From: Sulfitobacter pontiacus
Lineage (GTDB): Bacteria > Pseudomonadota > Alphaproteobacteria > Rhodobacterales > Rhodobacteraceae
Reading direction: 5' to 3'
Assembly (NCBI RefSeq): GCF_040790665.1
Contig: NZ_CP160849.1
Location: 2,319,501-2,383,500, forward strand
Length of the DNA stretch: 64,000 bases
The notes beneath the pieces were generated by a model that was not told the DNA's origin, did not search any database, and saw nothing but the letters and a program-made list of their open reading frames with translations. Of the stretch, positions 24,171-40,878 are shown piece after piece. Position numbers and translations under genes: made by a program. How positions within the stretch are numbered: position 1 is the first letter of the stretch; the number at the start of each line of letters is the position of its first letter.

Positions 24171-25229
24171 CTATACCGCTTCTTGCGCCTCGGCCAGTGT
24201 TTGCATCGCGTCCAGCGCCTCTAGCAGCACCTGACGGTCGGCACCGGGGCGGGAGGCTTGCTCGGACAGGGTGCGCCGCCAGACCCGTGCACCGGTGCGA
24301 CCGGCAAAGAGCCCCATCATATGGCGGGTGATCTGGTTCAGCTTGCCGCCGCCGTCGATATGCGCGTCGATATAGGGCAGCATCTGCGCCACGACATCCT
24401 CGGGCGTGGTGTCTGCGCCGGTGCCGTAAATGCGGCGATCCGCCTGCGCCAGAATATCGGTCGGGTTATGATAGGCGCTGCGCCCGATCATCACGCCATC
24501 CAAACCGGCGTCCAGAAACGCCTCTGCCTGATCAAGCGAGGTGATGCCCCCGTTGATCGAGATATGCAGGTTCGGGAACAGCCCCTTCATCCGGTGCACC
24601 AGCTCGTAGTCCAAGGGGGGAATGTCGCGGTTTTCCTTGGGGCTGAGCCCTTGCAGCCACGCCTTGCGCGCGTGGATTGTCACCCGTTCACAACCCGCGC
24701 CGACGATCTGCGCCAGAAACTCGGGCAGCACCTCGGCGGGGTTCTGGTCATCCACGCCGATCCGGCATTTGACGGTCACGTCCACATCCACCGCGCGCCG
24801 CATCGCCGCGACGGATTTCGCCACCAGCGCCGGTTGCTCCATCAGCACCGCGCCAAAACAGCCCGATTGCACGCGATCCGACGGGCAGCCGACGTTCAGG
24901 TTGATCTCGTCATACCCCGCCTGTGCCCCGATCCGCGCCGCCTCTGCCAGCTCGTCCGGGTCAGACCCGCCAAGCTGCAAGGCCACGGGATGCTCCGAGG
25001 TATCATGATCCAGCAAATGCAAAGCGCCGCCGCGCACCAAGGCAGGCGAGGTGACCATTTCGGTATAAAGCAACGTCTGCTTGGAAAACAGCCGGTGCAT
25101 GTAGCGACAATGCCGGTCGGTCCAGTCCATCATGGGTGCCACGGATAGCCTTGATGACCTGCAAATATCTGATTTTAATATACTATTCGTCAAATCAAGT
25201 TCCGTTTCGCTTTGCGCATTGTTGCGCAT
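24171..25229 (-). CDS. dusA: tRNA-dihydrouridine synthase A with phage-supplied 5' end
   Basis: 352 aa FMN enzyme reducing U20/U20a in tRNA. Core motifs: LSVAPMMDWTDRHCRY at 28-43, the catalytic Cys C115 in NVGCPSDRVQSGCFGAVLM, and a C-terminal helical domain. The N-terminal ~26 residues are unlike normal DusA and are encoded by prophage DNA: integration replaced the original start with a new ATG at 25229, or an internal start nearer RLSVAPMM. The displaced original start is at 40009-40065. The RLSVAP codons differ between the two copies only at synonymous sites. The catalytic body is intact, so the gene is probably functional if the new promoter works. Confidence 0.92.
   Translation of the reverse strand: MRNNAQSETELDLTNSILKSDICRSSRLSVAPMMDWTDRHCRYMHRLFSKQTLLYTEMVTSPALVRGGALHLLDHDTSEHPVALQLGGSDPDELAEAARIGAQAGYDEINLNVGCPSDRVQSGCFGAVLMEQPALVAKSVAAMRRAVDVDVTVKCRIGVDDQNPAEVLPEFLAQIVGAGCERVTIHARKAWLQGLSPKENRDIPPLDYELVHRMKGLFPNLHISINGGITSLDQAEAFLDAGLDGVMIGRSAYHNPTDILAQADRRIYGTGADTTPEDVVAQMLPYIDAHIDGGGKLNQITRHMMGLFAGRTGARVWRRTLSEQASRPGADRQVLLEALDAMQTLAEAQEAV
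25128..25151 (-). other. Prophage left junction (attL region) in dusA
   Basis: On the minus strand these 24 bases encode RLSVAPMM. The copy at the other end of the prophage (40009-40032) encodes the same eight residues, but 6 of 24 bases differ, all synonymously; only ATGATG is identical at the inner edge. Thus bases upstream of ATGATG here are phage-derived and the crossover lay at or beyond ATGATG, toward MDWTDRH. Integration of tyrosine-recombinase elements into the 5' end of dusA is a known site preference. Confidence 0.75.
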
Positions 25230-25305
25230 TTTAGCTTGTTTTTGCCCGTTTTTTGCTATCTGAACAATGCATGTTGTTCAGATTGACCAAAAATGTTGTT
25301 CAGAT
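25212..25305. promoter_or_regulatory. Repeat cluster between dusA and the integrase
   Basis: TTGCGCATT occurs twice in tandem (25212-25220, 25222-25230). TTGTTCAGAT occurs at 25274-25283 and 25296-25305 in direct orientation and, inverted, as ATCTGAACAA at 25258-25267. Placement between the attachment site and the integrase gene suits integrase arm-binding sites or an operator for the integrase promoter; which one is not determinable. Confidence 0.5.
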
Positions 25306-26388
25306 ATGCCCCAGATTATAGAGCGTAAACGCAAGGACGGTTCCACCGCGTATGTTGCACAAATCAACATCAGACGGAATGGCAAATGGGCGCATCGCGA
25401 ATCCCGAACTTTTGACAAGCATTCATCTGCTTCAGCATGGTTCAAAAAGCGGATGAAAGAAATCACTGCTGCTGGTGCAGACTTGACCGCCATCAATAGC
25501 AAAGGCCGAACACTAAGCACAGCGATTGACCGCTACATCACCGAAAGCGTCAAAGAGATTGGCCGCACCAAAGCACAGGTTCTGCGGTCAATCCGTGAAT
25601 ATGACATAGCGTCGATGAACTGCAACGACATACAAAGCCACGACATCGTTCAGTTCGCCAAAGAACTTGGCGCGACACGAACACCGGCCACCGTTGGAAA
25701 CTACTTGTCCCACCTTGGGGCAATCTTTGCCGTGGCCAGACCAGCATGGGGCATCCCATTAGACCAGCAGGCGATGAAAGATGCGTTCGTGGTCTGCAAT
25801 CGCCTTGGGATAACTGGCAAAGCGAAGAGGCGTGACCGTCGCCCTACGTTGGATGAACTGGATGCGCTGCTGACCATGTTCGAAGACAAGCACCGTCGCC
25901 GCCCCAATTCACTGCCCATGCATCGCGTGGTCGGGTTCGCGCTGTTTTCAACGCGCCGTCAGGAAGAAATCACAAGGGTGGCTTGGAAAGGTTTGGACCA
26001 GACGCACAACAGGGTGTTCATCAAGGATATGAAGCACCCCGGTGACAAAGTGGGCAATGACGTGTGGTACGACCTACCGGCCCCCGCCATAAACATAGCG
26101 ATGGCGATGCCAAGGAAGAAGCCACTGGTGTTCCCATATCACAGCGACACCATCAGCGCCGCGTTCACGCGGGCATGCAAAGTTCTGGAAATTGAAGACC
26201 TGCGCTTCCACGACCTTCGGCATGAAGGGGTTACGCGCTTGTTCGAAACCGGTGAAACGATTCCGCAGGTTGCCGCCGTGTCCGGGCATCGCTCTTGGTC
26301 TTCACTGCAGCGATACACCCACATCAAACAGACAGGCGACAAATATGAAGATTGGAAGTGGCTGCAAAGGTTAACGACAAGTAACTGA
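25306..26388 (+). CDS. int: Phage tyrosine integrase (dusA-specific type by location)
   Basis: 360 aa from the ATG at 25306; an ATG at 25267 would add 13 residues but would place the repeat cluster inside the gene. An AP2-like arm-binding N-terminus (DGSTAYVAQINIRRNGKW) and a SAM-like core-binding segment precede the catalytic domain. Catalytic residues, numbered from the longer start: R231 (STRRQEEI), H315-x-x-R318 (FHDLRH), H341 (SGHRS) and Y350 (LQRYTH). It would cut and join attP with the dusA attB. Neither start has a strong ribosome site. It is divergent from dusA. Confidence 0.9.
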   Translation: MPQIIERKRKDGSTAYVAQINIRRNGKWAHRESRTFDKHSSASAWFKKRMKEITAAGADLTAINSKGRTLSTAIDRYITESVKEIGRTKAQVLRSIREYDIASMNCNDIQSHDIVQFAKELGATRTPATVGNYLSHLGAIFAVARPAWGIPLDQQAMKDAFVVCNRLGITGKAKRRDRRPTLDELDALLTMFEDKHRRRPNSLPMHRVVGFALFSTRRQEEITRVAWKGLDQTHNRVFIKDMKHPGDKVGNDVWYDLPAPAINIAMAMPRKKPLVFPYHSDTISAAFTRACKVLEIEDLRFHDLRHEGVTRLFETGETIPQVAAVSGHRSWSSLQRYTHIKQTGDKYEDWKWLQRLTTSN

Positions 26389-26613
26389 GAAGTTTAGATC
26401 AACCAGATTTAGTTGCCCGATCACTTTTCACTTCTTTTACCACCTCGGCAACGACTATCCGATGGCCTGGCGTGCTTGTTTCTGAGGCCCAAATCTCTGC
26501 GATATCTTGTGCGTTGGAGTAGTCTGAGTATGCTCCATCCATCCGAACAGGTGCGAACACTTCATTGTCCAAAAGTGATGGCGCATATTCGATAACCAGA
26601 AATTCTTTGACTT

Positions 26614-27930
26614 GGGACTATCCTGAATTTTGTGCGCTGACGTGGTAACTGCTCACAGAGGAGACCCACGTATGAGCATCGACAAAGACTTGCTAGACCG
26701 TCTGATGGAAGGGCGTTCACCCGGTGACCTGTTTGGCAAGAACGGCATCCTGGCGGAGCTGACCAAGGCGCTGGCGGAACGCGCGCTGAGCACAGAGATG
26801 GATGTCCATCTCGATGAAGAGCGCGCAGATGATGCGTCTGAGGGCCAGAACCAGCCGCCCAATCGGCGCAATGGCAGCAGCCAGAAGACCGTGACCATGG
26901 ACAGCGGCAAGGTGGTTCTGGACATTCCCCGCGACCGGAACGGCACCTTCGATCCGATGCTGATCGCGAAGTATCAGCGGCGCTTTCCTGAATTCGACCG
27001 CAAGATTGTCAGCATGTATGCCCGGGGAATGACGACCCGAGAGATCCAGGGGCATATCGAGGAAATCTACGGCGTCGAGGCCTCGCCCAGCCTGATTTCC
27101 GCGATCACCGACGCGGTCATGGAGGAGGTCACCGCCTGGCAGAACCGCCCGCTGGATCCCTGCTATCCGATCGTCTTCATGGACGCGATCCGGGTCAATA
27201 TCCGCAGCGACGGGGCGGTCTCGAACAAGGCGGTCTTCGTGGCCCTCGCGGTGCTGCCGGATGGCACGCGGGACGTTCTGGGCCTGTGGTTTCAGGCCAA
27301 TGAGGGCGCGAAGTTCTGGGCCAAAGTGCTCAGCGACCTGCGCAACAGGGGCGTCCAGGACATCCTCATCACCGTCGTGGACGGGCTGAAGGGCTTTCCC
27401 CAGGCCATTGAGGCCGCATTCCCCCAGACTCGGATCCAGACCTGCATCGTCCATCTGCTGCGCCATTCCATGAACTTCGCCAGCTACAAGGACCGCAAGG
27501 CCGTCGCCGCCGCCCTCAAGGCGATCTACACGGCCGTGGACGTCGAGGCGGCAGAACTGGCTCTGGCTGAGTTCGAGGACAGCGATCTGGCAAGGCAGTA
27601 TCCGGCGATCGCGCCGAGCTGGCGCCGGGCCTGGAACGAGGTCATCCCGTTCCTCGATTACCCGCCCGAGGTCCGCAGGCTGATCTACACCACGAATTCC
27701 ATTGAGGCCTTGAACTCGAAAATTCGCCGTGCCGTCAGAACCCGAGGTCATTTCCCAAGCGACGACGCTGCGGCGAAATTGATCTATCTGGCGCTCAATG
27801 CTACATCGACCGAGTGGAAGCGTTCGGTCCGCGAATGGCACGCTGTCAGATCTCAGCTTGCCATCATGTTCGAAGACCGCTTCCCGATGGCGTAAGAAAA
27901 CGCGTCACGCACAAAATTCTGCACAGTCTC
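26614..27930 (+). mobile_element. Complete IS256-family insertion sequence
   Basis: 1317 bp. Terminal inverted repeats of 23 bp at 26614-26636 and 27908-27930 match at 19 positions and share GAATTTTGTGCG. The flanking sequence TTTGACTT is duplicated at 26606-26613 and 27931-27938, the 8-bp target duplication typical of IS256. One transposase gene fills the element. Intact ends, duplication and open reading frame suggest a recent insertion. Confidence 0.92.
26672..27895 (+). CDS. IS256-family transposase (mutator type)
   Basis: 407 aa DDE transposase. The acidic triad can be placed as Asp in VFMDAIRVN, Asp in TVVDGLKGF and Glu in NSIEALNSKIRR, with the family's TCIVHLLRHSMNF (C/H) segment between the second Asp and the Glu. 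The ATG at 26672 has GAGGAGA 8 bases upstream; the longer open frame from 26630 lacks a ribosome site. Full family length with no disruption. Confidence 0.95.
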   Translation: MSIDKDLLDRLMEGRSPGDLFGKNGILAELTKALAERALSTEMDVHLDEERADDASEGQNQPPNRRNGSSQKTVTMDSGKVVLDIPRDRNGTFDPMLIAKYQRRFPEFDRKIVSMYARGMTTREIQGHIEEIYGVEASPSLISAITDAVMEEVTAWQNRPLDPCYPIVFMDAIRVNIRSDGAVSNKAVFVALAVLPDGTRDVLGLWFQANEGAKFWAKVLSDLRNRGVQDILITVVDGLKGFPQAIEAAFPQTRIQTCIVHLLRHSMNFASYKDRKAVAAALKAIYTAVDVEAAELALAEFEDSDLARQYPAIAPSWRRAWNEVIPFLDYPPEVRRLIYTTNSIEALNSKIRRAVRTRGHFPSDDAAAKLIYLALNATSTEWKRSVREWHAVRSQLAIMFEDRFPMA

Positions 27931-27938
27931 TTTGACTT

Positions 27939-28163
27939 TCATTGCTGAGTTCCTTCATTTTTAACTTTGCGTAGCTCAGAAAGGATAGCTGCCAAAGCCA
28001 AGAAAATAATGCTGAATGCCGTGACTGCTATGTCAGTATCAAGGTTTCTGCTTCCACCAGTATATTGAATCGCAGTGGTATCATCTGCGAATAGTTTAAG
28101 GGCGATGCTAGCGGCTGATATGCTGAGCCCAAAGTAACCAAATACACGCAATACTAACAGCAC
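27939..28163 (-). CDS. 74-aa two-helix membrane protein in the prophage cassette
   Basis: Unrecognised. It starts with GTG at 28163, preceded by GGAGGG about 9 bases upstream. Two hydrophobic stretches are visible (LVLRVFGYFGLSISAASIAL and IAVTAFSIIFLALAAILSEL) with a polar loop between and a basic tail LRKVKNEGTQQ. Its stop overlaps the start of the IS-interrupted 72-aa gene, so the two were coupled. AT-rich relative to the host. It could be an exclusion or holin-like protein, but nothing in the sequence decides. Confidence 0.6.
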   Translation of the reverse strand: MLLVLRVFGYFGLSISAASIALKLFADDTTAIQYTGGSRNLDTDIAVTAFSIIFLALAAILSELRKVKNEGTQQ

Positions 28164-28272
28164 TTCTTAAGCCCTCCAATCAATATGATCACGGTAAATT
28201 ACTCGCTTATTTTTTGCCGAAAGAGCAGGGGGACACTAATAACCTGTGCGACGCAATATCAGTCATTCTGAT

Positions 28273-28704
28273 TTATACTATTCCATCTGTGATAGCTGCT
28301 TTTACAGTCAAAACACCTATGACGAACAGACCGATAGTGGAAACGGCCACCCCTAGTGCAACAACATGGATAATCCGCTTTGCTATTGCTAAGCGAGGTT
28401 CACTAGCGGTGTCCCTTGCATTAAAAGTTGCTGCAGCGGCGTAGTTTGTGAAGTACGCCAATGCGATACCGACTACCCCCAACGCGGCACCAAAGGCAAA
28501 ATAAGCGATCGCATCAGCTACGCCAACGATTGCGACTGAATAATTCATTTCTGCTTTGGCTATAGAGGCTACAAAGCCGAGCACTGCCACAGCTGCGCCC
28601 CCATTGATCAAGATTGCGCTTCTCAAAAACAAGTTCGCGGTATCAATGACCTTTTCGTTCATATGCTTGAACATTTGAACGTACATGTCTGAATCTTGGC
28701 TCAT
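28273..28704 (-). CDS. 143-aa four-helix membrane protein in the prophage cassette
   Basis: Unrecognised. The ATG at 28704 has GGGGG 5-9 bases upstream; a TTG 12 bases earlier is less likely. The N-terminal ~30 residues are amphipathic (SQDSDMYVQMFKHMNEKVID), followed by four hydrophobic segments (about 32-50, 56-90 as two, and 118-140). A short cytosolic loop with ARDTASEPRLAIAKR separates the last two. First of three same-strand small genes next to the integrase, AT-richer than the flanking host genes. Likely accessory cargo and not a structural phage gene; a role in superinfection exclusion or defence is speculation. Confidence 0.6.
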   Translation of the reverse strand: MSQDSDMYVQMFKHMNEKVIDTANLFLRSAILINGGAAVAVLGFVASIAKAEMNYSVAIVGVADAIAYFAFGAALGVVGIALAYFTNYAAAATFNARDTASEPRLAIAKRIIHVVALGVAVSTIGLFVIGVLTVKAAITDGIV

Positions 28705-28871
28705 CAAAACCCCCAAATGGAATAAGCATCTAAATGCACAGTTGCTTTGAAACAGTACAGCTTACAATCTTTTTTTGGAAATCGAGTAGAGCAGGGGGTT
28801 TGCGATAAGATGCTGGCTAAAAATCTTCGTCTATTACTGGAAAAAATAACGCTGTTGAACTGGCAATGCGT

Positions 28872-29282: not shown

Positions 29283-29463
29283 CGTAAGGGAACTTTAAGC
29301 CGTCAACCACTTCCCAACCTTCTTCGCCGAGCTTGCTCTCAATATCAGCCTTCATTTTCCGAACGCTGTCGGCAGAAAATTCGTCGAAATTCATCGCTGC
29401 CTCGGGGGGGAAAGCGTTCTCAGCCCATTTCCCGCCGGCTTTTTTGGCTGGTGTTCTGTTCAT
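29269..29463 (-). CDS. Small acidic protein, candidate antitoxin partner
   Basis: 64 aa, net acidic, mostly helical-looking (NFDEFSADSVRKMKADIESKLGEEG) with a basic N-terminus MNRTPAKKAGGK. It lies directly upstream of, and overlaps by 14 bp, the PemK/MazF-like gene. The antitoxin role is inferred from position and size only. GGAGAT lies 5 bases before the ATG. Confidence 0.45.
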   Translation of the reverse strand: MNRTPAKKAGGKWAENAFPPEAAMNFDEFSADSVRKMKADIESKLGEEGWEVVDGLKFPYDEVA

Positions 29464-30066: not shown

Positions 30067-30116
30067 ATAGTTGCGCGGCACGCACACGGACTACAGCTAG
30101 GCAAGAATTTTTCATA

Positions 30117-30161: not shown

Positions 30162-30176
30162 CAAAATAGCATTACT

Positions 30177-30665
30177 TCACGTCGATCGCACGCAGTCTGA
30201 CCCAAGCGCGGGCACCTTCCGATTGCCCCAAGTCACAACATCAAACAGGAACTGTGGTGACACACGCTGCGGATTGGGAAGCCCCAAAGCGGCTGCGCAA
30301 ATCTCCGAACAGAACCATTGGTCAGGGTTGTGGCGACCAAACGCCAGCACCTGTGACAGCATCAAGCCAGCGTAATCATAGCGCGCACCCAAGTGGTCCC
30401 TGATGAATTGACAAGGTGCTTCAGCATCCATCGGCAAAAGCACTAAATCCCAGCTTTCTGCAGTCAGAAGAATGCGCTTCTGCCGCACCCCGCCGTCACG
30501 ACCGGACGCTGAAAGACACATCGAACAATGCCCCGGCAAAGCCGCCCCAGAAATCAACTCAACATGCGAGTAGATGCCGCCGGTCACGCTTCGAATTAAT
30601 CCATTCTGAAACCGCTGGAAGGCAGTATTGCCGCGCCCCTTGTAGAAGGCCAGCGTGACAGTCAC
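30177..30665 (-). CDS. Permuted NlpC/P60-like cysteine hydrolase
   Basis: 162 aa. The motif order GGIYSHVELISG (His) early and QWFCSEICAAALG (Cys) late is the circularly permuted papain-like pattern of YiiX/LRAT-type NlpC/P60 relatives, where His precedes Cys. GARYDYAGLM between them is also typical. No signal peptide. It is the last gene of the prophage late unit, right after the spanin genes and overlapping the o-spanin end by 4 bp. It may be an amidase or lipid-linked hydrolase; the substrate is unknown. Confidence 0.65.
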   Translation of the reverse strand: MTVTLAFYKGRGNTAFQRFQNGLIRSVTGGIYSHVELISGAALPGHCSMCLSASGRDGGVRQKRILLTAESWDLVLLPMDAEAPCQFIRDHLGARYDYAGLMLSQVLAFGRHNPDQWFCSEICAAALGLPNPQRVSPQFLFDVVTWGNRKVPALGSDCVRST

Positions 30666-30976
30666 AGCGCGCCGTCAGGGGGTGAAGACTGGAACCCGGC
30701 ACGCAACTGGTCAAACCATTCAGCGCAGCGCGTTGTACGCATATTCTGACGGGTCAAAGCACGGTCAATCTTCAGCAAGGCCACATCCAACCGGTCACCC
30801 TTCTGGACACCAGCCCGCGACAGGGCGCGACAATCTTCAGGTAAAGCTGGCAGGGTTCGTTCAGCGGCGCGCGCGCCTCGATCTGCACCTACAGTATCCA
30901 GCCGCGCTTCAGTTTGATCGCAGGCGGCGCAGAAGATCACCATCGACAACGCCTTCAGCATTGATGTCAGTTTCAT
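30662..30976 (-). CDS. Candidate outer-membrane spanin (Rz1-like lipoprotein)
   Basis: 104 aa from ATG at 30976; the frame is open further up but inside the preceding gene. A short lipoprotein signal with lipobox-like IFCAAC (Cys at residue 19) is followed by a polar body with several Cys and Arg residues. Its first 68 bases overlap the end of the i-spanin candidate in another frame, the hallmark of overlapping Rz/Rz1 pairs. Function assigned by architecture, not by sequence identity. Confidence 0.6.
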   Translation of the reverse strand: MKLTSMLKALSMVIFCAACDQTEARLDTVGADRGARAAERTLPALPEDCRALSRAGVQKGDRLDVALLKIDRALTRQNMRTTRCAEWFDQLRAGFQSSPPDGAL

Positions 30977-31271
30977 TTTCGAAAGCCTCCAGTTCTGCGG
31001 CAAATCGAAGGGCCTCCCCTTCGGATGCCTGCACCTTTTCCTGCAAGACGCGGTTTGCATTATCTGCCACAGCTGCGCGCCGCCTCATTTCCGCCAGTTC
31101 AGCTTCTGCAGCAGCCAGTTCGACCTGCAGCACATAGCCATCACGCGCGCTTTTTACGGCCTGCGATTTATCCGCGACATGCCAAGCCCACACACCGGCA
31201 CATAAGATGACGGCAAGGCCAACACGGCTGGTCAGCAGCCGCCATCCGAACTTCAATGCAATTGAAATCAT
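30909..31271 (-). CDS. Candidate inner-membrane spanin (Rz-like)
   Basis: 120 aa from ATG at 31271 (GGCAGGGA upstream). One N-terminal membrane segment (SRVGLAVILCAGVWAWHVAD, about 15-34) then a coiled coil rich in Ala/Glu/Arg (VELAAAEAELAEMRRRAAVA and QEKVQASEGEALRFAAELEA). The start overlaps the holin candidate by 4 bp. With the lipoprotein gene nested in its 3' end it would span the periplasm and fuse the membranes at lysis. Confidence 0.65.
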   Translation of the reverse strand: MISIALKFGWRLLTSRVGLAVILCAGVWAWHVADKSQAVKSARDGYVLQVELAAAEAELAEMRRRAAVADNANRVLQEKVQASEGEALRFAAELEAFENETDINAEGVVDGDLLRRLRSN

Positions 31272-31513
31272 TCCCTGCCACCCCATCCGGTTTGGCGACT
31301 GACCCACTCCATGCCATGGGCAACGGTAAGGTTGCCAATGACCAAGGGCAGCGCAAGCGTTAGGATAGCCTGTGTTCCCTCAAGAGAACTGCCAGCTGCC
31401 TCTTTTGCAGCGGACCACCCAAAAGCGATGGACCACAACAAGAAAACCGCCCACGCCTGTTCACGCTTACCCGACTGACCGCCGATGACAAACTTTCCGA
31501 AAAGCTTCAGCAT
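31268..31513 (-). CDS. Candidate holin
   Basis: 81 aa with two hydrophobic segments (AWAVFLLWSIAFGWSAA, about 20-36, and ILTLALPLVIGNLTVAHGM, about 50-68) and charged ends. It lies between the endolysin gene and the spanins, which is the holin position in a lysis cassette. No family assigned; the call rests on size, topology and position. Confidence 0.6.
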   Translation of the reverse strand: MLKLFGKFVIGGQSGKREQAWAVFLLWSIAFGWSAAKEAAGSSLEGTQAILTLALPLVIGNLTVAHGMEWVSRQTGWGGRE

Positions 31514-31514
31514 G

Positions 31515-32255
31515 TCATGCCTCGTTGGTCAGCTTGGCACCACTCGAAGTGATAACCGGCAGGGAACTGAGCCCAGTTTCTGCAGGTGTCGGTGATCCTT
31601 CCGGCCAGTGGTATTGTGCGTTGCGTGCGGTCGGGCTGTAGGGATTGATTGAAACCATGTTCCCTTGGTTTCCACCAAGACCCATGATGTTTCCATGGCG
31701 GTCACGACCTGCGACAAATGTCATGTGACCACTGCCGGGCCTGCCGGGTCGCTCCATCGACATGACGGCCCCAAGGGCGGGACCATCAAGGCGGGTGCCA
31801 TACCCATTCCAGCGCCAACCCAATGCGGCCGCACGGTTCTTGCTCACGATAGGCAGACCAGCAGCCTGCACCATCGCGTTCCCGAACCCCGCGCACCATG
31901 GCGTTTCATCATCCTTGAACGGTAGCGAAAGACGTTCCCACCACCCCAAAATTTCAGCGTTGTGATGCCGCCCTACAATTTCGCGAAGCCCTAGGTGACT
32001 GTACGCCAAACGCAGCCAAACCGGCATAGGGTAGCGCGCGCCATCCGACGCGATATTTGCAGCGACTGGTCGAATTGCCTTACGCAGCGCCATGATGGTC
32101 ACAGGTCCAACATAATCGCGCGCCCGCAAACCCCTGGACTGTTTGAAAGCGATAGTTGCAGCCGATGTTTTGGGGCCGTCAATGCCGTCGATGCGGCCAT
32201 GGTAAAACCCGTAACGCTTCAGCAACTTTTGCCGTTCTTTGATGGTCATAGTCAT
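31515..32255 (-). CDS. Phage endolysin: peptidoglycan-binding plus CHAP-like domain
   Basis: 246 aa from the ATG at 32255, which has GGAGA 6 bases upstream (the ATG at 32261 is too close to it). Residues ~5-60 form a PG-binding-1 domain (KLLKRYGFYHGRIDGIDGPK). The C-terminal part matches the TIGR02594/CHAP-type family: ETPWCAGFGNAMVQAAG carries the Cys and GSGHMTFVAGRD the His. It would cut the peptidoglycan peptide at lysis. No signal peptide is seen, so it needs the holin. Confidence 0.82.
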   Translation of the reverse strand: MTMTIKERQKLLKRYGFYHGRIDGIDGPKTSAATIAFKQSRGLRARDYVGPVTIMALRKAIRPVAANIASDGARYPMPVWLRLAYSHLGLREIVGRHHNAEILGWWERLSLPFKDDETPWCAGFGNAMVQAAGLPIVSKNRAAALGWRWNGYGTRLDGPALGAVMSMERPGRPGSGHMTFVAGRDRHGNIMGLGGNQGNMVSINPYSPTARNAQYHWPEGSPTPAETGLSSLPVITSSGAKLTNEA

Positions 32256-32270
32256 GTCCATTCTCCATAG

Positions 32271-32298
32271 AAAAAGCCCGCCTAAAAAAAGACGGGCC
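32271..32298 (-). terminator. Intrinsic terminator directly before the endolysin gene
   Basis: On the minus strand GCCCGTC, a T-rich loop and GGCGGGC form a 7-bp stem (one G-U) followed by TTTTTC. It lies 16 bases upstream of the endolysin start and after the upstream protease-like gene. It should separate tail from lysis transcription unless antiterminated. Confidence 0.7.
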
Positions 32299-32332
32299 GG
32301 TCAGGTTGAATTGATGTGGATCTGCGCTGGTA

Positions 32333-32713
32333 TTAAAGCAGGCGTAGCAATGGACGCAGAAGGAACTTCAGCGCAACCAACGGGAACAGGTATGGGAACC
32401 GCAGGCGGTAACCATTTGGCAGTTTTTCGACCAGCTTGCGCTGTATGTTGTCAGTCCAGCCGTTACCACGGCACCAGACCACAAGGTGTCCACCACCACT
32501 CGGCGAACGGCAGTGCCAGAACAGATACTTGAAGGTCACCAGCGCCCACCAGAAGCGCAGCAATGATTGCCGCTCCCACAGCCAGACCAGCGTCAGCGAA
32601 TAGTCTTCACAGTCGCCGGAAACCGGACCTTCAGCAGCCAAGATGCGCCAACTATCCCCTTCATCGCTGGCATACCTGAAACGCTTATTCAGCGAATTTT
32701 GAATTTCATTCAT
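32333..32713 (-). CDS. Transglutaminase-like cysteine protease (BTLCP-type)
   Basis: 126 aa from ATG at 32713. The triad can be read: Cys in SGDCEDYSLTLVWL, His in GGHLVVWCRG and Asp in WTDNIQ, the C-H-D order of bacterial transglutaminase-like cysteine proteinases. It is short for the family and ends in a hydrophobic tail (YLFPLVALKFLLRPLLRLL), which may anchor it in the membrane. The start overlaps the upstream gene's stop by 8 bp. Its role in the phage is unknown. Confidence 0.6.
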   Translation of the reverse strand: MNEIQNSLNKRFRYASDEGDSWRILAAEGPVSGDCEDYSLTLVWLWERQSLLRFWWALVTFKYLFWHCRSPSGGGHLVVWCRGNGWTDNIQRKLVEKLPNGYRLRFPYLFPLVALKFLLRPLLRLL

Positions 32714-33374
32714 TCGTATCAGCCTCCATTTGGGAAAGAATTGGCACCTCGAAGCACTCTTCTTCAGGGTCAATTGGGTCATCCTTGGCGCTCATACCGG
32801 GGCAGCTGACATAGCTTGGGCGAACGCAAAGTTCCGCACCGGGCCGCAGCCGACGCGGTGTTGAAAATTTGAACGGAAGGTTGATGTAGGATGTGCCGAC
32901 ATCCTTAGCCGCGCCCGCGAATGTGATTACGTCATGGACCTCATTGTCTCTAGGATTGCGGTAGTAGTAGTCCACGGTGCCCGGCACTATCTGACAGGCT
33001 AAAGCCGCGACCTTCCGCCTGACGCGAATGTTCATCTCGCACGGGACACCATCAATGCAGAAACCGTCGATTGGCCCTGAACGGTCACTGATCTCGAAAA
33101 TATCTGTTGGAATAGTCAAGCGCCGTATCGCTTCGGTATTCTGCGCAATGGCGCGTGCATTATCCAGCATCAGCTGGCGGTCTTCTTCCCTCTGAAGTAG
33201 CGCCTTTTCGGGGTATTCAGACCAAGCCATAATGCCTGACCAGACGTCGGTGGAATAAGCGACAATTCCTGCCGTCACCCCACCCACGAATACACCGATA
33301 AACGATTTCCTGAATGCTGAAGGCATATCGCGTCGCCACTTCTGAAGTTCGGTCAGTTTTACTTCTTCAGTCAT
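32706..33374 (-). CDS. 222-aa prophage protein with one membrane segment
   Basis: Unrecognised. N-terminal cytosolic ~25 residues, a hydrophobic stretch about 26-41 (IGVFVGGVTAGIVAYS), a helical stalk (about 55-85), then a cysteine-containing, strand-rich C-terminal domain (CIDGVPCEMNIRVRRKVAAL and later CVRPSYVSCPGM). The Cys pairs suggest a disulfide-bonded periplasmic domain. It overlaps gpD and the protease-like gene by 8 bp at each end, so it belongs to the tail transcript. Confidence 0.6.
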   Translation of the reverse strand: MTEEVKLTELQKWRRDMPSAFRKSFIGVFVGGVTAGIVAYSTDVWSGIMAWSEYPEKALLQREEDRQLMLDNARAIAQNTEAIRRLTIPTDIFEISDRSGPIDGFCIDGVPCEMNIRVRRKVAALACQIVPGTVDYYYRNPRDNEVHDVITFAGAAKDVGTSYINLPFKFSTPRRLRPGAELCVRPSYVSCPGMSAKDDPIDPEEECFEVPILSQMEADTNE

Positions 33375-34362
33375 TCGCCTTCAGCTTCCCTTCAAATGCC
33401 GTCCGCAGACCGCCTGATTTTGTGTACGAGTGCTTCACCATTTCAGTAATGAATTCGCGACCATCAACGCCCGGACGGACGCCGAGATACGTGACTGGCT
33501 GACCTGCCATCAATCCGGGACGCCCGACGATTGCGCATGATGTCTTGATTAACCCGCGCAACATTTCGCGCGCATAAGCTTCAGCAGCCGCCTGTGCTTC
33601 AACCTTGGAACCAAAGGGTTCACGGATTACGTGTTCACCATCAGCTTCCACGTCACCATCAACCGTGACCTCCTGCCGCTTTGCGCTGCCACGGTCCTGA
33701 TAAAACGCCTTAACCTTGCCAAACCGGTCCACATCGTTTTCTGAAACGCGGCAACTGCCTTCGACGATTGATGTGGGGATGATGACCGTTGCCGCGACAG
33801 ATGTGCCGTCAGCGGTTTCACCCGCACCCCGCTTCAACCAAAGAAGCGCACCGTTTTTTATCGTGAATAAGGCCCCATGGCGCTTGGCGACACGCTCCAA
33901 AAAGTTAAGGTCCGATTCATCTTGCTGGCCAATCCAAGGATAGACGTGACCCGAAACCGCATCTGATATTTTTGGGTCAAGCCCGTACTCACCAGCGATT
34001 TCCGTGACAATATCCTTGACTGATGTGTCATCCCAATGCCGCGATTTGCTTGTCTTCATGTCAGAACGAAGGTCAGCCGAATGCCCCCCAACTGTGATCG
34101 TGTAAGGCAGGCAGCTATGATCAACACGGTCGATGATATAGGCGCCAGCAAATCCACCACCAGAGCCAGCCAAAATGGTCACGGTCGCGACCGCACCGCG
34201 CCTTGGACTGGCAAAATGTGGGGCAGCGTCGTTGAAAGTCATTTCCAAAGTGTCGGACCGGATGCCTTCGCGGTCTGTGATGCTAAGACTGACCAGACGT
34301 TCAAAAAACAATCCGGACACAGGGACACCATCAATGTCCACCAGAACCCGTGGATGCGTCAT
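33367..34362 (-). CDS. P2 gpD-like tail hub protein
   Basis: 331 aa from the ATG at 34362, which overlaps the gpX stop (TGATG). It matches the phage late-control D family: an N-terminal barrel (PRVLVDIDGVPVSG...RLVSLSITDREGI), a middle segment HWDDTSVKDIVTEIAGEYGL with WIGQQDESDLNFLERVAKRHG, a hallmark of gpD, and a C-terminal domain with GRPGLMAGQPVTYLGVRPG. GpD forms the trimeric hub at the base of contractile tails. Confidence 0.88.
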   Translation of the reverse strand: MTHPRVLVDIDGVPVSGLFFERLVSLSITDREGIRSDTLEMTFNDAAPHFASPRRGAVATVTILAGSGGGFAGAYIIDRVDHSCLPYTITVGGHSADLRSDMKTSKSRHWDDTSVKDIVTEIAGEYGLDPKISDAVSGHVYPWIGQQDESDLNFLERVAKRHGALFTIKNGALLWLKRGAGETADGTSVAATVIIPTSIVEGSCRVSENDVDRFGKVKAFYQDRGSAKRQEVTVDGDVEADGEHVIREPFGSKVEAQAAAEAYAREMLRGLIKTSCAIVGRPGLMAGQPVTYLGVRPGVDGREFITEMVKHSYTKSGGLRTAFEGKLKAND

Positions 34363-34574
34363 CAGTCCCAAAGCCTCACTGTTTGCTGACCTTGGCCATT
34401 GGTGGCGATGTCAGGCAGCACAATGGCCAGCCCGACAGGCAAACGATGTGCAACGCCCGCGATGTCAGGGTTGGCTTCCAGAACCTGTTCAACTGCACCA
34501 GCTTGGCGACCGTAGTGGCGCGCGCAGATCAAATCCAAGGCGTCATTTTCAGATGTGACATGAACAGCCGGCAT
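34362..34574 (-). CDS. P2 gpX-like tail protein
   Basis: 70 aa. Reads MPAVHVTSENDALDLICARH then ANPDIAGVAHRLPVGLAIVLPD, the LysM-like tail protein X pattern (first a D-x-L-D-x-I-x, then NP-x-L-A, then LP-x-G-x-x-I-x-LP). Start and stop overlap gpU and gpD by one base each. The order U-X-D is that of P2-like phages. Confidence 0.88.
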   Translation of the reverse strand: MPAVHVTSENDALDLICARHYGRQAGAVEQVLEANPDIAGVAHRLPVGLAIVLPDIATNGQGQQTVRLWD

Positions 34575-34999
34575 CAAATAATCCCCAACAGTGAAAGCAG
34601 CGAAAAGCCAGAGCCGATCTGCCTGACCTTGATTGAATAAGAAATGCGACCGGCTTGCCCTAAACGGTTCATAAACGCCTTGTCGTCTTCGACCCCTTGG
34701 ATGGCCTGCATCCCAAAAATCTGACCCGAACGATTGGCAAGCATCAGCGGAAGCCCGTTCTTTGCGGCCAAACGAACACCGCCCAACGTGCTTTCCCCAC
34801 CCCATTCTGCTGGAAGTAGAACGCCGTTTATTGTGACAATTTCAGAACGCGGGCCAGTCCACTGCAGGGCGTTCATACGCCCCGCAGTTTCAATTTCAGC
34901 CCATGTTGTGTCCAGCTTGCGACTAACATCTGTGTACCCAAAGCCATGCGCACGGAACAAAAATGGCCCTAAAGCCATGGTGACTGGTCCAGACATCAA
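34574..34999 (-). CDS. P2 gpU-like tail terminator protein
   Basis: 141 aa, phage P2 GpU family: ALGPFLFRAHGFGYTDVSRK at the N-terminus and GGVRLAAKNGLPLMLANRSG in the middle. In P2, gpU caps the tail tube. It lies 9 bp after the tape measure gene and overlaps gpX by one base. Confidence 0.85.
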   Translation of the reverse strand: MMSGPVTMALGPFLFRAHGFGYTDVSRKLDTTWAEIETAGRMNALQWTGPRSEIVTINGVLLPAEWGGESTLGGVRLAAKNGLPLMLANRSGQIFGMQAIQGVEDDKAFMNRLGQAGRISYSIKVRQIGSGFSLLSLLGII

Positions 35000-35008
35000 G
35001 TGCCCCTT

Positions 35009-38000
35009 TTAATCAGAAAAGCTGGCCGCAAACGTGGCAGCGATGCGCTCACCCAAACGGGTTTCAATAAGATCCACCAACCCTTCAGGGTCAGACACGC
35101 CAGTTGGCGCAACGATGTGAATTCCACCGTTGATCTCTAGGCGGACATCCTGCGCTGACGATGCCGAACGTAATTCCTGAGCGGGTGCTGCAGCCGCCTG
35201 TGTCGCAACCCCGACAGACACTGCAGCCAAACTGGCAAGCCCAGCAGACCGAACACGCTGCGCACCTCGCGACACGCCTGAATCTTGACCAGTACCAAAA
35301 TGGGACATGAACGCAGACTTCGCCTGACCCACATTCAAAATGCCACCAGATACAGAAGGCACGAACCATTCGGATTTTGGCGTATGCTCGTTTACGCGAT
35401 AGGGCAAACCAGCACGCACCGAACCACCGAATGCCCGCGCACCAGCAGGCTTTGCAGTTGAACCAGAACCGGCACTTGCGCCCGGCATCGCCCGCAGCTG
35501 CGCAGACAAGCGCGCAACCTTTTCCAAAGCACGATCAATTGACGCGGCATTGATTTCAGGTGTTGCTTCAGTTCCATCCAAGACCTGCAGCGCACCTGTC
35601 AGCTGCGCTGCCGCTGCTTCAGCACTATCCAACCGATCTTCAGCGCGTCGAAGGTCAGCTTCAGCTGCATCCAGTCCACTCTGCGCCTGCACACGAAGCG
35701 GATTGATGATGCCGCTATTGAATTCCGGATTGGCATCAAGCGCAGCCTGCGCCGCCTCAACTTCCGAGCGATACGCTGCCGCCTCTTCACGCAGATGCGC
35801 TATGCGCTCGGGAGTCGGTAGATTGATTTCACCTTTGAACTGATGAACGGTATCTGCAGTAGCCCGGATGCCCGGATCATTAGGTAGCAACTCCGGGGAG
35901 ACTGGCGGCGACTTTCCATGCACCCATTCAAACGTGCGCTCATAACCCGCAATTAGATGGCTGATTCCGGGCGTGCTTCGAAATGCTTTATCTATTGACC
36001 GAACGTTTCCTTCCTGAAATTCCCTTAGGCCTTCGGGATTTTCAGGGACATTACGCATCGCAAGGAAGGTCATCGCCCCAGCGGAAAAGGCACCCCACCT
36101 AATGCGCGACAGGCTGCGTTGCATAATGGCGGATTGCCGCCCGACATGGGTGGTCAGGCGTGTGACTTCGGCAGACGCATTGCGGCGAAAGCCAGTGAAA
36201 CGTGCCAGCGCAGGCACAAAGCTTGGCAGAAGGGCGGCGGTCCACCGCAGCGGTACAATCAGCGATGAAAGCGCCAAGCGTCCAGCTAGCCTTGACCATG
36301 GAATCTTCGGGATAAACCGCGATGTCCACTGGAATGGGAATAGCAAACGGTTGATGGCGAAATGCCCTGCGAGACGCACCCACGGAATGCGCCCGATCAG
36401 ACTCGCACCCCAGCGGACAGGGGTCAGTAGGGAGGACAGCGCAAAACGCGGCAGACGACGCAGCGCACCAAAGCGGCCCGCTAAACTAGCAAGACCACCC
36501 CCCGCAAATATGGCGCGCGCGCCCAAGCCCACCAGACCAAAACGCAGAACCGCCATAGTTCCTGCTAGGCCAGCAAGGGCCGTCAGCACAAAGCCACCCG
36601 CGACTGCCATGGCACCAAGCGCAACTCCGCCCATCACCAGCGTCTTGGTCAGCTTTGGGTTTTCCTTCGTCCAATCCACCATATTGTCGAGGATAACCTG
36701 AGATTTCGACAGCAAATCGTTCAAAGGCGGCAAAACCACTTCACCGATGCTAGTGCCCAAGCGGGTGGTTTGGTTGCGCAAGAGCTGCATATTGTTTGCA
36801 GTGGTGCGCGAACGTTCAGCATATTCCGCTTCAGCGCTGCCAAGATATTGCGTTTCCTCAGCGACCAGCGCCAACATTTCCGGCATCAGCTGCATGTTGT
36901 TCATCAGCTTAGTAAGTTCGCGGGCTTCATCACCGAACAGGTCTGACATGACTGATGCACGCACGTGGTCAGGTAGTTCATTCAACCGACGCATGACATC
37001 CATAGTGGTGCCAACAGCGTCTTTCTGCATGGCGCGTGCTACAGCTTCAGAGCCAAGACCCAAACGCTGCATCGCCGCGCTTTGCCGGTCAGTTGCACTT
37101 TCACCGCGGACAAGCGCCCGCCCCATGTTCCGGAACGATGTTGCGGCAGTGTCAGCGCCCGCTCCAGCAGCAATCATCGAAGCACCAATGGCCAGCGTTT
37201 CCGTGCTGTCAAAGCCGAAATTAGAACCATCAGCACCAGCACGGTTCAAAAATTCCAGCGTCTGGTCAGCACGCGCTGCCGAATTGTTCGACAGGTGGTT
37301 CATCGCGTCGAACAAAGAACCAGTTTGGTCCAAGTCCAATGCCATGGCGGTCTTAATGCTGGCCATCGCATCGCCCGATTGACCAGCAGAAATATCAAAC
37401 GCCACACCAATTTTTGCGGCCATTTCCGCAAAGCGTGCCAATTCCTCCTGCGCCACCCCGGACTGACCACCAGCGGCAACGATTTCCGCCAGACCAGTTG
37501 CTGCAATCGGAATCCGCGTGGACATTTCCATGATGTCTTCAGACATCGCACGGAATGCCGCCGGGCTTTCAAAATCCACAACCTTGCGGACATCTGACAT
37601 GGCGCTTTCGAATTCGACCGCCTGCATAATTGGCGCAGACATGCCAGTCAGCATGCGCCGCCCGGTCTGCATTGAAGCATTGCCGACAAAGCTAAGGTTC
37701 GCAGCAGTAGCAAGCGACCGCTGCATTCTTTCGCGGCCTTCAGCAATACGGTCCTGCATTACCTTCAGGCGCTGCATCCGTTCAGCCTGACGTGCGAACT
37801 TGCCATTAGTGGCATCCAATGCACCGGCTAGACGGCGTTGCTCACCAGCAAGGTCAGACGTATTGACGCCTGCAGATTGCATTTGCCCCTGAAGGCCGCG
37901 CAGTTCTGCGCGATTGCGGCGATGCTTCTCTTCAAGTCGACCAGCCGCTGTACGCGCGCGATCAAATTCACGGCGCATTGCGGCTGTTGGGTTCTCGGTC

Positions 38001-38257
38001 GCGCGAATTGTCGCCAAAAGCTGGCGCGTCTTTTCATTCGCCCCATCCAACGCATCAGCAGACTTGCGAACCACCGCTTGCTGACGACGAAAGTCTTCGA
38101 TCAATCGAAGCGGGCCACGCATGTCCTGCATGCGACCCATTTCCGACCGGACCTTGGACGCAAAACGGCCAGTGACCCCTGTCATGTTACGAATTTCAGA
38201 CGAGTATTGGTCAATTGCCTTGATGACCAGTTCCGTTTTGATCCGCTTGTCTGCCAT
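35009..38257 (-). CDS. Phage tail tape measure protein
   Basis: 1082 aa from ATG at 38257 (MADKRIKTEL). The first ~200 residues are coiled coil; residues ~210-460 hold the conserved phage-tail MP domain (IPIAATGLAEIVAAGGQSG and NRAGADGSNFGFDSTETLA); hydrophobic segments follow around 545-620; the C-terminus again has helical heptads and a QDVRLEINGGIHIVAPTGV tail like P2 gpT. The protein sets tail length. AAGGTG lies upstream. No frameshift seen. Confidence 0.93.
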   Translation of the reverse strand: MADKRIKTELVIKAIDQYSSEIRNMTGVTGRFASKVRSEMGRMQDMRGPLRLIEDFRRQQAVVRKSADALDGANEKTRQLLATIRATENPTAAMRREFDRARTAAGRLEEKHRRNRAELRGLQGQMQSAGVNTSDLAGEQRRLAGALDATNGKFARQAERMQRLKVMQDRIAEGRERMQRSLATAANLSFVGNASMQTGRRMLTGMSAPIMQAVEFESAMSDVRKVVDFESPAAFRAMSEDIMEMSTRIPIAATGLAEIVAAGGQSGVAQEELARFAEMAAKIGVAFDISAGQSGDAMASIKTAMALDLDQTGSLFDAMNHLSNNSAARADQTLEFLNRAGADGSNFGFDSTETLAIGASMIAAGAGADTAATSFRNMGRALVRGESATDRQSAAMQRLGLGSEAVARAMQKDAVGTTMDVMRRLNELPDHVRASVMSDLFGDEARELTKLMNNMQLMPEMLALVAEETQYLGSAEAEYAERSRTTANNMQLLRNQTTRLGTSIGEVVLPPLNDLLSKSQVILDNMVDWTKENPKLTKTLVMGGVALGAMAVAGGFVLTALAGLAGTMAVLRFGLVGLGARAIFAGGGLASLAGRFGALRRLPRFALSSLLTPVRWGASLIGRIPWVRLAGHFAINRLLFPFQWTSRFIPKIPWSRLAGRLALSSLIVPLRWTAALLPSFVPALARFTGFRRNASAEVTRLTTHVGRQSAIMQRSLSRIRWGAFSAGAMTFLAMRNVPENPEGLREFQEGNVRSIDKAFRSTPGISHLIAGYERTFEWVHGKSPPVSPELLPNDPGIRATADTVHQFKGEINLPTPERIAHLREEAAAYRSEVEAAQAALDANPEFNSGIINPLRVQAQSGLDAAEADLRRAEDRLDSAEAAAAQLTGALQVLDGTEATPEINAASIDRALEKVARLSAQLRAMPGASAGSGSTAKPAGARAFGGSVRAGLPYRVNEHTPKSEWFVPSVSGGILNVGQAKSAFMSHFGTGQDSGVSRGAQRVRSAGLASLAAVSVGVATQAAAAPAQELRSASSAQDVRLEINGGIHIVAPTGVSDPEGLVDLIETRLGERIAATFAASFSD

Positions 38258-38270
38258 GTCGCTACACACC

Positions 38271-38299
38271 TTGAAGTTGTAGGGTAATATGCCTATATT
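38271..38299 (+). promoter_or_regulatory. Promoter of the small plus-strand gene
   Basis: TTGAAG (38271-38276), a 17-bp spacer, then TATATT (38294-38299). The following ATG at 38306 is 7 bases after the -10 box, where transcription would start, and has no ribosome site. This is a sigma-70-like promoter feeding an apparently leaderless message. Confidence 0.6.
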
Positions 38300-38305
38300 T
38301 ATGGC

Positions 38306-38524
38306 ATGGATATTTTTTCGATGTTTTTTGCTATTGTGATGATAGCTGTCGCCATCGCCGCGACGGTTGTATTGGGCGTCTATGCAGGAGGGGTATGGGG
38401 CGCAGGCGCATTCGCGCTGCTACTGTTTATCCTATACCGGTCCTTCACCCATCAAAGCGGCCCCGACCGTGCAAACGACCGGGGCACGCTGAATGCTTTT
38501 CAGCAGTCACTGGCGGACGACTGA
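38306..38524 (+). CDS. 72-aa membrane protein, candidate phage moron
   Basis: Unrecognised. Lies on the plus strand in the gap between the tape measure start and the gpE' end, against the direction of all tail genes. Two or one long hydrophobic segments (MFFAIVMIAVAIAATVVLGV and GAGAFALLLFILYRSF, approximate), then a polar tail HQSGPDRANDRGTLNAFQQS. Its own promoter precedes it by a few bases and the message looks leaderless. This fits a gene expressed in the lysogen; the function is unknown. Confidence 0.55.
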   Translation: MDIFSMFFAIVMIAVAIAATVVLGVYAGGVWGAGAFALLLFILYRSFTHQSGPDRANDRGTLNAFQQSLADD

Positions 38525-38526
38525 AG

Positions 38527-39044
38527 CTATTCAAATTTCAGCCGCGTTGAATCCCACACCTTCTGTGCAGTTTCATGCCAACTGTTGAAATCTGACATCT
38601 TCATCGACAAGACCTGCGGCAATGGTGTCGAAAACACTGATGCCACAAATCCGGCGGCAAAGCGCAGGTCTTCTGCTACTTTGCCGGGGGTTCGTTTCCC
38701 GAACCAGCACCTTCACCTTTGCCTTCCTTGAACCCTAAGATGGCTTCAGCTGCAGCGTTGACGGCTTCAAGGTCCGAGTCCTTGATTTTGCCAACCACGG
38801 CCTCAGAGACACCCGACAGACGGGCCAGCCAGAAGCGGTTCACCTTCGCGGCCGTGATAGGCGAATGCACGGCCAGTTCAGAACCATCTGACTGCTTTAC
38901 CATCTTCGGTTTCGGAAAGGACGCTTCCAGTTCCGCATAAGCGATTTGGGCGTCAAGGTCAGGCTCATCGAACGCAAGCTTGTCATAGGTCTGCTCATTG
39001 ACCACGACGGGCCGCGTCAGCTTCACTTCAATTGGTAAATCCAT
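38527..39044 (-). CDS. gpE-gpE' tail assembly chaperone made by -1 frameshift
   Basis: The zero frame is the 122-aa gpE-like protein ending at 38676 (...GSGNEPPAK). In that frame TC-G-GGA-AAC gives the slippery heptamer G GGA AAC at 38694-38700. A -1 shift there continues without a stop to TAG at 38527-38529, adding residues that read VAEDLRFAAGFVASVFSTPL and later SWHETAQKVWDSTRLKFE. P2 makes E and E+E' this way and lambda makes G and GT at GGGAAAG. The extension has the small acidic/aromatic character of GpE' proteins. It lies between tube and tape measure genes, the expected place. Confidence 0.8.
38676..39044 (-). CDS. gpE-like tail assembly protein (zero-frame product)
   Basis: 122 aa, phage tail assembly chaperone family: begins LPIEVKLTRPVVVNEQTYDK, contains SPITAAKVNRFWLARLSGVS and ends in a Gly/Glu/Lys-rich tail that includes the frameshift site. 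It helps wrap the tape measure during tail assembly and is absent from the mature tail. It follows the tube gene by 12 bp. Confidence 0.82.
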   Translation of the reverse strand: MDLPIEVKLTRPVVVNEQTYDKLAFDEPDLDAQIAYAELEASFPKPKMVKQSDGSELAVHSPITAAKVNRFWLARLSGVSEAVVGKIKDSDLEAVNAAAEAILGFKEGKGEGAGSGNEPPAK

Positions 39045-39056
39045 CTGCGCAGCCCC

Positions 39057-39566
39057 TTAGTTCAGCATCAGGGCTGAACGGATGTCAGAAGTCTGCGACT
39101 GACCACCCACAGAAACATTGAAGTCATCCGCTTCGATCATTTCAGAACCGCCAATTTCCAGCTTCAGATATTCCCACACGAACGTGTAGTCAGTTTCCGC
39201 TTTGTCGCCAGCTTTCCAGCTGCCAAAATCAGCTTCTTTCAGAAAGCCGCGCAGATAGCAGGTCGCGTTCGAAACCGTGCCATCTTCATCCACCAGCGCG
39301 CCTGTAATCATAAGCGTGTCGGTGGTACCCTGCATGCCGTTGATGGCAGCGACGGTTGCCGGGTCCAAAGCGGTCATTTTGAACTTGGCGTTTTCGCGCT
39401 CATAGCCTTGGCGAATTTCACGCTCCATCACCATGCCTGCGTTGCGGATTTTGTCGGTCTTCACCTTGAAGGGGGGAATGGTCATTTCTGACGCTTGGCC
39501 AACCTTCACGTCTTCGTTCAGCCACATCGCACAATCGCGAAGCAGGAATGCCGGGGTCGATTTCAT
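39057..39566 (-). CDS. Phage major tail tube protein (P2 FII-like)
   Basis: 169 aa. The N-terminus FLLRDCAMWLNEDVKVGQAS and the following segment TIPPFKVKTDKIRNAGM match the contractile-tail tube family, and it ends DFNVSVGGQSQTSDIRSALMLN. It polymerises into the inner tube inside the sheath. GGAGATATGATATG lies at its start. Confidence 0.88.
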   Translation of the reverse strand: MKSTPAFLLRDCAMWLNEDVKVGQASEMTIPPFKVKTDKIRNAGMVMEREIRQGYERENAKFKMTALDPATVAAINGMQGTTDTLMITGALVDEDGTVSNATCYLRGFLKEADFGSWKAGDKAETDYTFVWEYLKLEIGGSEMIEADDFNVSVGGQSQTSDIRSALMLN

Positions 39567-39594
39567 ATCATATCTCCTGAATGGGCCATTTATC

Positions 39595-39633
39595 TGATGG
39601 CATCAGTGCAGATGCACTGGTGGTGCATCTGCA
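39595..39633. repeat. Palindrome plus hairpin between sheath and tube genes
   Basis: A perfect 12-bp palindrome CTGATGCATCAG (39595-39606) adjoins an 11-bp perfect stem TGCAGATGCAC (39607-39617) / GTGCATCTGCA (39623-39633) with a 5-nt loop. No T-run on the minus strand, so possibly mRNA processing or differential expression of tube versus sheath. Confidence 0.45.
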
Positions 39634-39658
39634 TCATGGGTTCGCGGATTGACTGGAC

Positions 39659-40008
39659 TTAGGCTGCGGCCTGAAGCGCCGCTTTGGTCAAATCCAGATA
39701 GTATTCGATGTTGCGGTGCGCGATGAAGCGGATGTCTTCCATCGGTGCAGGCGGTTCGAAATCAAGCGACAGCGTGATGCGACCGGAAGCCAGGGCAATC
39801 GGTTCGTTCAGGTCTTGGTCTAGCCAGACACGGCCCCCGATGATTGCACCTTCAGCAACGAAGGTCCGCATGGCGGCATTGCCTGACTCGATCATCAATT
39901 TGACGTTCGCTGCCGAAAACGGTTTGTCCACGAATTCAAAGTAAGCCTTTTCGATGGCTTCATTGATGAAGTCTGCCGTGCGGCGAACTGCGAGGAACAC
40001 CCACAGGT
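39659..40008 (-). pseudogene. Tail sheath protein, C-terminal remnant
   Basis: About 117 codons of the sheath frame remain (DDLWVFLAVRRTADFINEAI, then FVDKPFSAANVKLMIESGNA, then a NIEYYLDLTKAALQAAA end), matching the conserved C-terminal domain of P2 FI-type contractile sheaths, which are normally about 390-480 aa. At 40009-40014 the sequence passes into the dusA 5' remnant, in a different frame. The rest of the sheath gene is absent, so the contractile tail cannot be made from this locus. Confidence 0.85.
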
Positions 40009-40065
40009 CATCATCGGGGCGACCGAAAGCCGTGCGGCGCGGGTGAGATCGGATCTATGTCCCAT
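40009..40065 (-). pseudogene. dusA: Displaced original 5' end of dusA
   Basis: On the minus strand, ATG at 40065 opens 19 codons that read MGHRSDLTRAARLSVAPMM and then run out of dusA into phage DNA. RLSVAPMM is identical to residues 27-34 of the current DusA, encoded with six synonymous differences. This is the host half of the original prophage right junction. It is cut at ATGATG, short of MDWTDRH, so attR itself is missing. Confidence 0.82.
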
Positions 40066-40570: not shown

Positions 40571-40601
40571 ATCCTCATCAACGTTAAGCCGGTTCCCCAG
40601 A

Positions 40602-40844: not shown

Positions 40845-40878
40845 CGCTTTATCCTCGCGCTGTCGCGCTTATGGGGCC

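Follow-up and report, generated by a model that had tools for sequence, protein, structure and literature searches.

The stretch of DNA analysed here, called the window, comprises 64,000 nucleotides on contig 1 of the 3.55-Mb genome of Sulfitobacter pontiacus (G000), and it carries a prophage remnant inserted in the 5′ end of dusA. The current dusA lies on the minus strand at 24171..25193. It encodes 340 amino acids (aa) from its likely start, TTG 25193, and its open frame extends up to ATG 25229. The product was identified as DusA by family scans (PF01207 and NCBIfam DusA, 1e-146). A tyrosine integrase gene of 373 aa (25267..26388, plus strand; PF00589) starts 38 bases past ATG 25229 and is divergent from dusA. 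A second dusA start, MGHRSDLTRAARLSVAPMM, lies at 40009..40065 on the minus strand, in the same orientation as the current gene. Both starts, and the integrase beside the current one, had been proposed in a first-pass annotation of the window and were confirmed in the sequence and by the family scan. On the minus strand, the current dusA reads AGG CTA TCC GTG GCA CCC ATG ATG, ending at 25128, and the displaced start reads CGG CTT TCG GTC GCC CCG ATG ATG (40032-40009). The two differ at six of these 24 bases, and every difference is synonymous, as had also been claimed.

Replacement of the dusA start

The first-pass annotation held that the element had brought its own diverged, synonymous RLSVAP codons and that the displaced start was the host's own. 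It predicted that a prophage-free relative would join 40065-40009 directly to the sequence from 25127 leftward. A DusA search of 60 relatives gave 42 matches at E <= 1e-100, including the window's own, and 30 loci were read. This arrangement was found in the prophage-free relative G012 (locus L004), in which dusA is uninterrupted and DusA is 95% identical to that of the window. Window 40009-41570 aligns to L004 1557-3, and the window from 25127 leftwards aligns to L004 from 1558 onwards, so that the two flanks abut in G012. The native start of G012, MGYKSNITRASRLSVAPMMDWTDRH, is the homologue of the stranded window start and stands in place; the match continues for about 1.5 kb further upstream. 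When the two window flanks were joined in silico, they gave MGHRSDLTRAARLSVAPMMDWTDRHCRYM, in frame. MRNNAQ... is not the native dusA start in G012, and a start of the MGHRSDLTRAA type is present upstream. These results demonstrate that an element of the dusA-associated integrase (DAI) kind replaced the 5′ end of dusA and stranded the native start. The gene order DUF1289-ruvX-ccmI (40602-42587) lies upstream of dusA in the window, with ruvX and DUF1289 likewise in G012; in several other genomes it lies downstream of dusA and tauE.

The ATGATG core at attL (25128..25133, minus strand) is the meeting point of phage-supplied and host codons. In six distinct ordinary elements, the attL and attR sequences diverge ahead of ATGATG and are identical from there to at least the end of ATGATGG (over 19 bases in G474), which matches the earlier placing of the exchange at or past ATGATG. 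The assignment of the integrase to the DAI class rests on its catalytic residues and on its identity to named DAIs. R231, H315, R318, H341, and Y350 were invariant when it was aligned with six phage integrases, so that all five catalytic residues are present. It is 32% identical to the integrase of mEp460, 47% to that of BcepIL02, and 56% to that of AH2, which are phages named in PMC4482086. The locus thus has a tyrosine recombinase of the R-H-R-H/Y type, an integrase gene beside the dusA 5′ end, and a displaced native end. The interpretation in the first-pass annotation stood as far as the phage-supplied codons and the position of the core are concerned; it had missed the cut-down state of the element and the deletion junction in a sheath gene described below.

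The same annotation had dusA begin at the ATG of MRNNAQ, and this part needs correction. When 15 arms were aligned and judged by eye, 11 had a possible start codon (ATG, GTG, or TTG) at a shared column; in the remaining four, an ATG in the same frame lies one or six codons further upstream. The window codon at this column is TTG 25193, with GGAA shortly before it. The alignment suggests that TTG 25193, not ATG 25229, is probably the DusA start now used. A scan of 25100-25400 revealed no convincing promoter: the single 9-of-12 match (chance expectation 0.6) falls within the coding part. It also gave two terminator-like sites (0.3 expected).

Protein-level constraint on the phage-supplied start

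The phage-supplied start module (TTG...KSDICRSSRLSVAP; 25134..25193, minus strand) is absent from prophage-free G012, and similar arms lie beside related integrases and in phage records. Six of 58 genomes of the genus and 36 of 394 of the family (own included in both) have a related integrase, and further integrase loci were taken from genome contigs (13) and viral contigs (12). The arm set was entered by 59 loci; nine copies were dropped, and 37 of the 50 left have dusA (WTD[RK]H) beside the integrase. These 37 dusA-anchored arms were chosen regardless of the preceding peptide, and the test on them was used instead of an earlier one with 35 arms, which had been selected by peptide pattern and was hence biased. 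Among the 13 arms without adjoining dusA, seven have next to no upstream sequence and L073 ends at the core; a start-like peptide is followed by other DNA in L072, L076, L126, and L138, and L134 has no such peptide.

All 37 anchored arms enter dusA in frame. Their 18-base stretches for R-L-S-V-A-P are 37 different sequences, and the residues are largely kept: A and P in 37 arms, V or I in 37, L in 35, S in 32, and R in 30. Serine codons of both the TCN and the AGY type occur in the 35-arm set. Read in the true frame, the arms have a pairwise amino-acid identity of 0.805, compared with 0.26 for the other frames, at a nucleotide identity of 0.615. In 300 column permutations, amino-acid identity reached at most 0.678; the arms are mutually related, which keeps this figure from being a formal probability, and some of the variation could stem from exchange with host dusA. 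These results show that the supplied DusA codons are held at the protein level, with silent positions drifting and amino acids kept. Phage DNA is thereby held at the protein level for a host gene that is never fully phage-encoded. The start peptide was also found beside the integrase in all seven phage records examined, which were selected from 127 with a match (RHph_Y3_1, AH2, F1Pa, BcepIL02, AS1, mEp460, and CSP3); that of BcepIL02 was overlooked by the pattern and recognised in the printed frame.

The dusA starts in the studied group record repeated phage visits. In 9 of the 30 dusA loci, the window's included, the 1.5 kb or so upstream contains a whole or partial integrase of the DAI kind. 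In a metagenome-assembled genome (MAG) of Roseobacter sp. (G005, locus L041), the displaced start adjoins a second, divergent integrase (L041 1080-2207) that is 35% identical to the inner one; L041 1080-2567 appears as a tandem pair of DAI elements at dusA, each bringing a separate DusA start. The displaced start of G018 resembles the present phage start and adjoins a decayed integrase. Judged from these neighbours, the displaced start is itself probably phage-made in two of the eight elements with a resolved far end. Decayed integrase pieces also lie beside dusA with a phage-like start, KSDVVRAARLSVAP, in G033 and G011 (L006 and L027), and a phage-supplied dusA start may outlast its element there.

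Fusion of the dusA core to a tail-sheath gene

A scan of 18 stretches or records resolved the far end in 7, of which G482 duplicates G476, and no displaced start lay within the other 11 stretches. In the ordinary elements (G474, G475, G476, G018, G484, and G229), the displaced start passes through ATGATGG into phage DNA. The displaced core of the window passes instead into a C-terminal piece of a tail-sheath gene (39659..40018, minus strand; PF17482), which keeps 119 residues and lacks its 5′ part; a full sheath of 414 residues is encoded by the viral contig L084. The fusion point is the nine-base sequence CCGATGATG (40009..40017, minus strand). It is common to the displaced dusA core and to the sheath, because L082 and L086, in which the sheath is uninterrupted, have CCGATGATGACCTG at this point. 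Single copies of CCGATGATG are present in L082 and L086 and none in L084; the window has four (1.5 expected). The 21-bp semi-conserved repeats that mark the ends of DAI elements are not found as a pair: attL has the dusA core, and the far end has just CCGATGATG followed by sheath, the missing repeat being attributable to a later deletion. The window far end is therefore a deletion junction in the sheath gene, not an ordinary attR.

The element retains P2-type tail genes. Its late genes (30177..39566, minus strand) comprise those for an endolysin/tail lysozyme-like protein, GpD, GpX, GpU, tape measure, chaperone, and tail tube, and frames without assignment. In L084, the sheath gene, with both sheath domains, follows genes for head decoration, capsid E, baseplate V, W, J, and I, and fibre. 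None of the head, baseplate, or fibre families was matched by the 19 window-element proteins scanned with Pfam, several of which match nothing. The element thus differs from an intact P2-type prophage in its lack of head genes, baseplate wedge, and fibre and in its sheath of 119 residues. No intact parent that combines the integrase and the tail of the window element was found: tube, sheath, and tape measure were absent from the 13 integrase-bearing stretches or records searched, five further stretches lying outside the search. The sheath piece, tube, and GpU are 98-99% identical to those of L082 and the tape measure (35009-38269) is 64% identical, which points to a mosaic swap in an otherwise near-identical tail module. 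An IS256-family transposase gene (26675..27895, plus strand; NF033543, 7e-124) is a later insertion just past the integrase. Around the integrase start (25257..25306), TTGTTCAGAT recurs in direct and inverted orientation, and these copies are possible integrase arm sites or an operator. The attL arm (CAGGTCATCA) and the sheath (TGATGACCTG) were noticed by eye to share a ten-base inverted repeat; the G005 arm has CAGGTCTGCA. Elsewhere on contig 1 of G000 (404507-404809), a longer tail-sheath gene (L033; open frame 449) is about 44% identical.

A second fusion was found in G005, whose integrase is 94% and whose tube is 99% identical to those of the window. Its sheath is likewise cut at the dusA core, about 100 bases further upstream than in the window. 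The IMG/VR contig L083 has the G005 junction too, perhaps from the same reads. At four-fold sites, the distance between G000 and G005 was 0.25 for the integrase and 0.23-0.39 for the sheath piece, tube, GpU, and GpD; six host genes gave 0.48-0.65. The tape measure (0.49) and the chaperone (0.42) are both divergent. The integrase and most tail genes are closer than the host genes, and the element appears to have been acquired horizontally.

Excision of a dusA island requires Int and RdfN, a PrtN homologue, as the only element proteins, and int and rdfN lie on opposite sides of attP, according to PMC8409611. The factor is not universal; a PrtN/RdfN homologue was counted in 60 of 94 islands in PMC4482086. 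PF11112 (PrtN) was present in seven of seven comparison genomes or records (G018, G017, G229, G474, G475, G476, and G484); in the six whose far end was resolved, it lies between 0.4 and 10.7 kb inward from the displaced start. PF11112 had no match in the whole window genome, and neither of the two genomes with cut-down elements has one. A tblastn search of the two cut-down elements with seven RdfN proteins gave nothing better than E 0.029. A PrtN-type excision factor was very probably removed by the trimming. With this factor gone, the prophage is probably locked in, despite the five catalytic residues of its integrase.

Origin of the fusion and comparison with known systems

These observations fit an account in which a temperate phage with a DAI-type integrase inserted at the ATGATG core of dusA and swapped the first codons for its own start module. 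Later in the lysogen, or in the excised circle, the att core would have recombined with the chance nine-base copy, CCGATGATG, inside the sheath gene. This exchange may have been begun by the integrase, between attR and the sheath site in the lysogen or between attP and the sheath site in the circle. The genes ahead of the sheath site (head, baseplate, and fibre genes, with the first part of the sheath gene) would have been lost with it, and very probably a PrtN-type factor too. Such a loss would lock the remnant in place and fix the phage-made N-terminus of DusA for good. We give the whole account, from insertion and start replacement to att-core trimming and locking, a probability of about 0.7. 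Several points weigh against it. The window junction is known from one assembly, and the sheath site hardly resembles the dusA site beyond the nine shared bases. The G005 junction and the sheath of its relatives have only TGA in common, which is poor for site-specific exchange. The nine genomes tested for PrtN were picked as already-read elements, not at random, and seven frames of the window element that are neither PrtN-like nor assigned leave room for another excision factor.

Loss of the left arm by ordinary short-repeat slippage without the integrase, the match to the core being luck, is unlikely, yet it has to be taken seriously. Nine shared bases alone could suffice, such repeats are plentiful (787 nine-base pairs when 8.7 kb was compared with 11.6 kb of phage sequence), and the G005 junction has just three shared bases. 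However, a random repeat deletion would rarely pick the att core among so many repeats, and two lineages were cut there; integrase-initiated exchange is favoured for this reason. A single fusion, in a trimmed but still mobile ancestor of both cut-down elements, is improbable. The two elements share the integrase type and the tail genes, and both are cut in the sheath about 100 bases apart, but a sheath-tube tree of 12 sequences sets G000 with intact L082 apart from the rest (99) and groups G005 with intact L084 (94). This tree, which could mislead if the phages exchanged mosaic pieces, argues for two independent cuts, and the G005 fusion thus appears independent of that in the window. The reading of MRNNAQ... 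as the native start, with 40009-40065 as a chance or duplicated piece, can practically be dismissed: the empty site of G012 has the latter start in place, phage records have starts of the current type, and nothing was found in its favour. An attP naturally within the sheath gene was rejected on the integrase-side arm, which has no sheath N-terminus, and on the uninterrupted sheath of relatives. A satellite embedded in a late gene of a helper (PMC10111431) was rejected on the arm, which encodes a DusA start.

Beyond this element, it is about an even question whether integrases can trim their own prophages by recombining the att core with a pseudo-core in a late structural gene, cutting away head genes and the attR-side excision factor and locking the remnant, as would have occurred on two or more separate occasions in the tail-sheath gene of related dusA phages. 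If they do, a phage-coded N-terminus of an RNA-modifying enzyme becomes permanent. This would be a concrete route to prophage fixation, in which one recombination at the element's own insertion site removes structural genes and exit factor and leaves the host gene repaired.

Prophages at icd carry a working copy of the disrupted gene end, and icd is rebuilt at its 3′ end. The integrative and conjugative element SXT at prfC likewise has a working copy of the gene end that it disrupts (PMC8409611). Core-exact trimming of elements that rebuild gene ends is not reported in the accessible part of PMC8409611. Among titles and abstract openings in the literature searched, there was no report of dusA being fused exactly at the core to a tail gene with excision-factor loss, none of an integrase-made prophage deletion, and none of a codon-level constraint test on supplied gene ends, although such reports may exist elsewhere.

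The window element shares its tail-gene order (tube, tape measure, GpU, GpX, GpD, and sheath C-terminus) with the P2-type contractile tail of L084 and differs in lacking the sheath front, baseplate V/W/J/I, fibre, and head genes. The Vibrio dusA islands are mobilizable and have RdfN, whereas the window holds a phage remnant without RdfN; a tandem pair at dusA occurs among them, as in G005 (PMC8409611, 2021). Like DAI prophages and islands, the window element has a divergent tyrosine integrase at dusA, inserts at the 5′ end, and supplies a new dusA 5′ end; its far end is a sheath-gene fusion, and no PrtN homologue is left (compared with PMC4482086, Farrugia et al. 2015). It is already known that DAI elements supply a new dusA 5′ end with a replacement beta strand (PMC4482086), and the new promoter and DusA N-terminus have been measured with lacZ (PMC8409611). 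To this, the present analysis adds the protein-level constraint on the supplied codons, the likely TTG start, the core-sheath fusion, a second fusion in G005, and the probable loss of PrtN.
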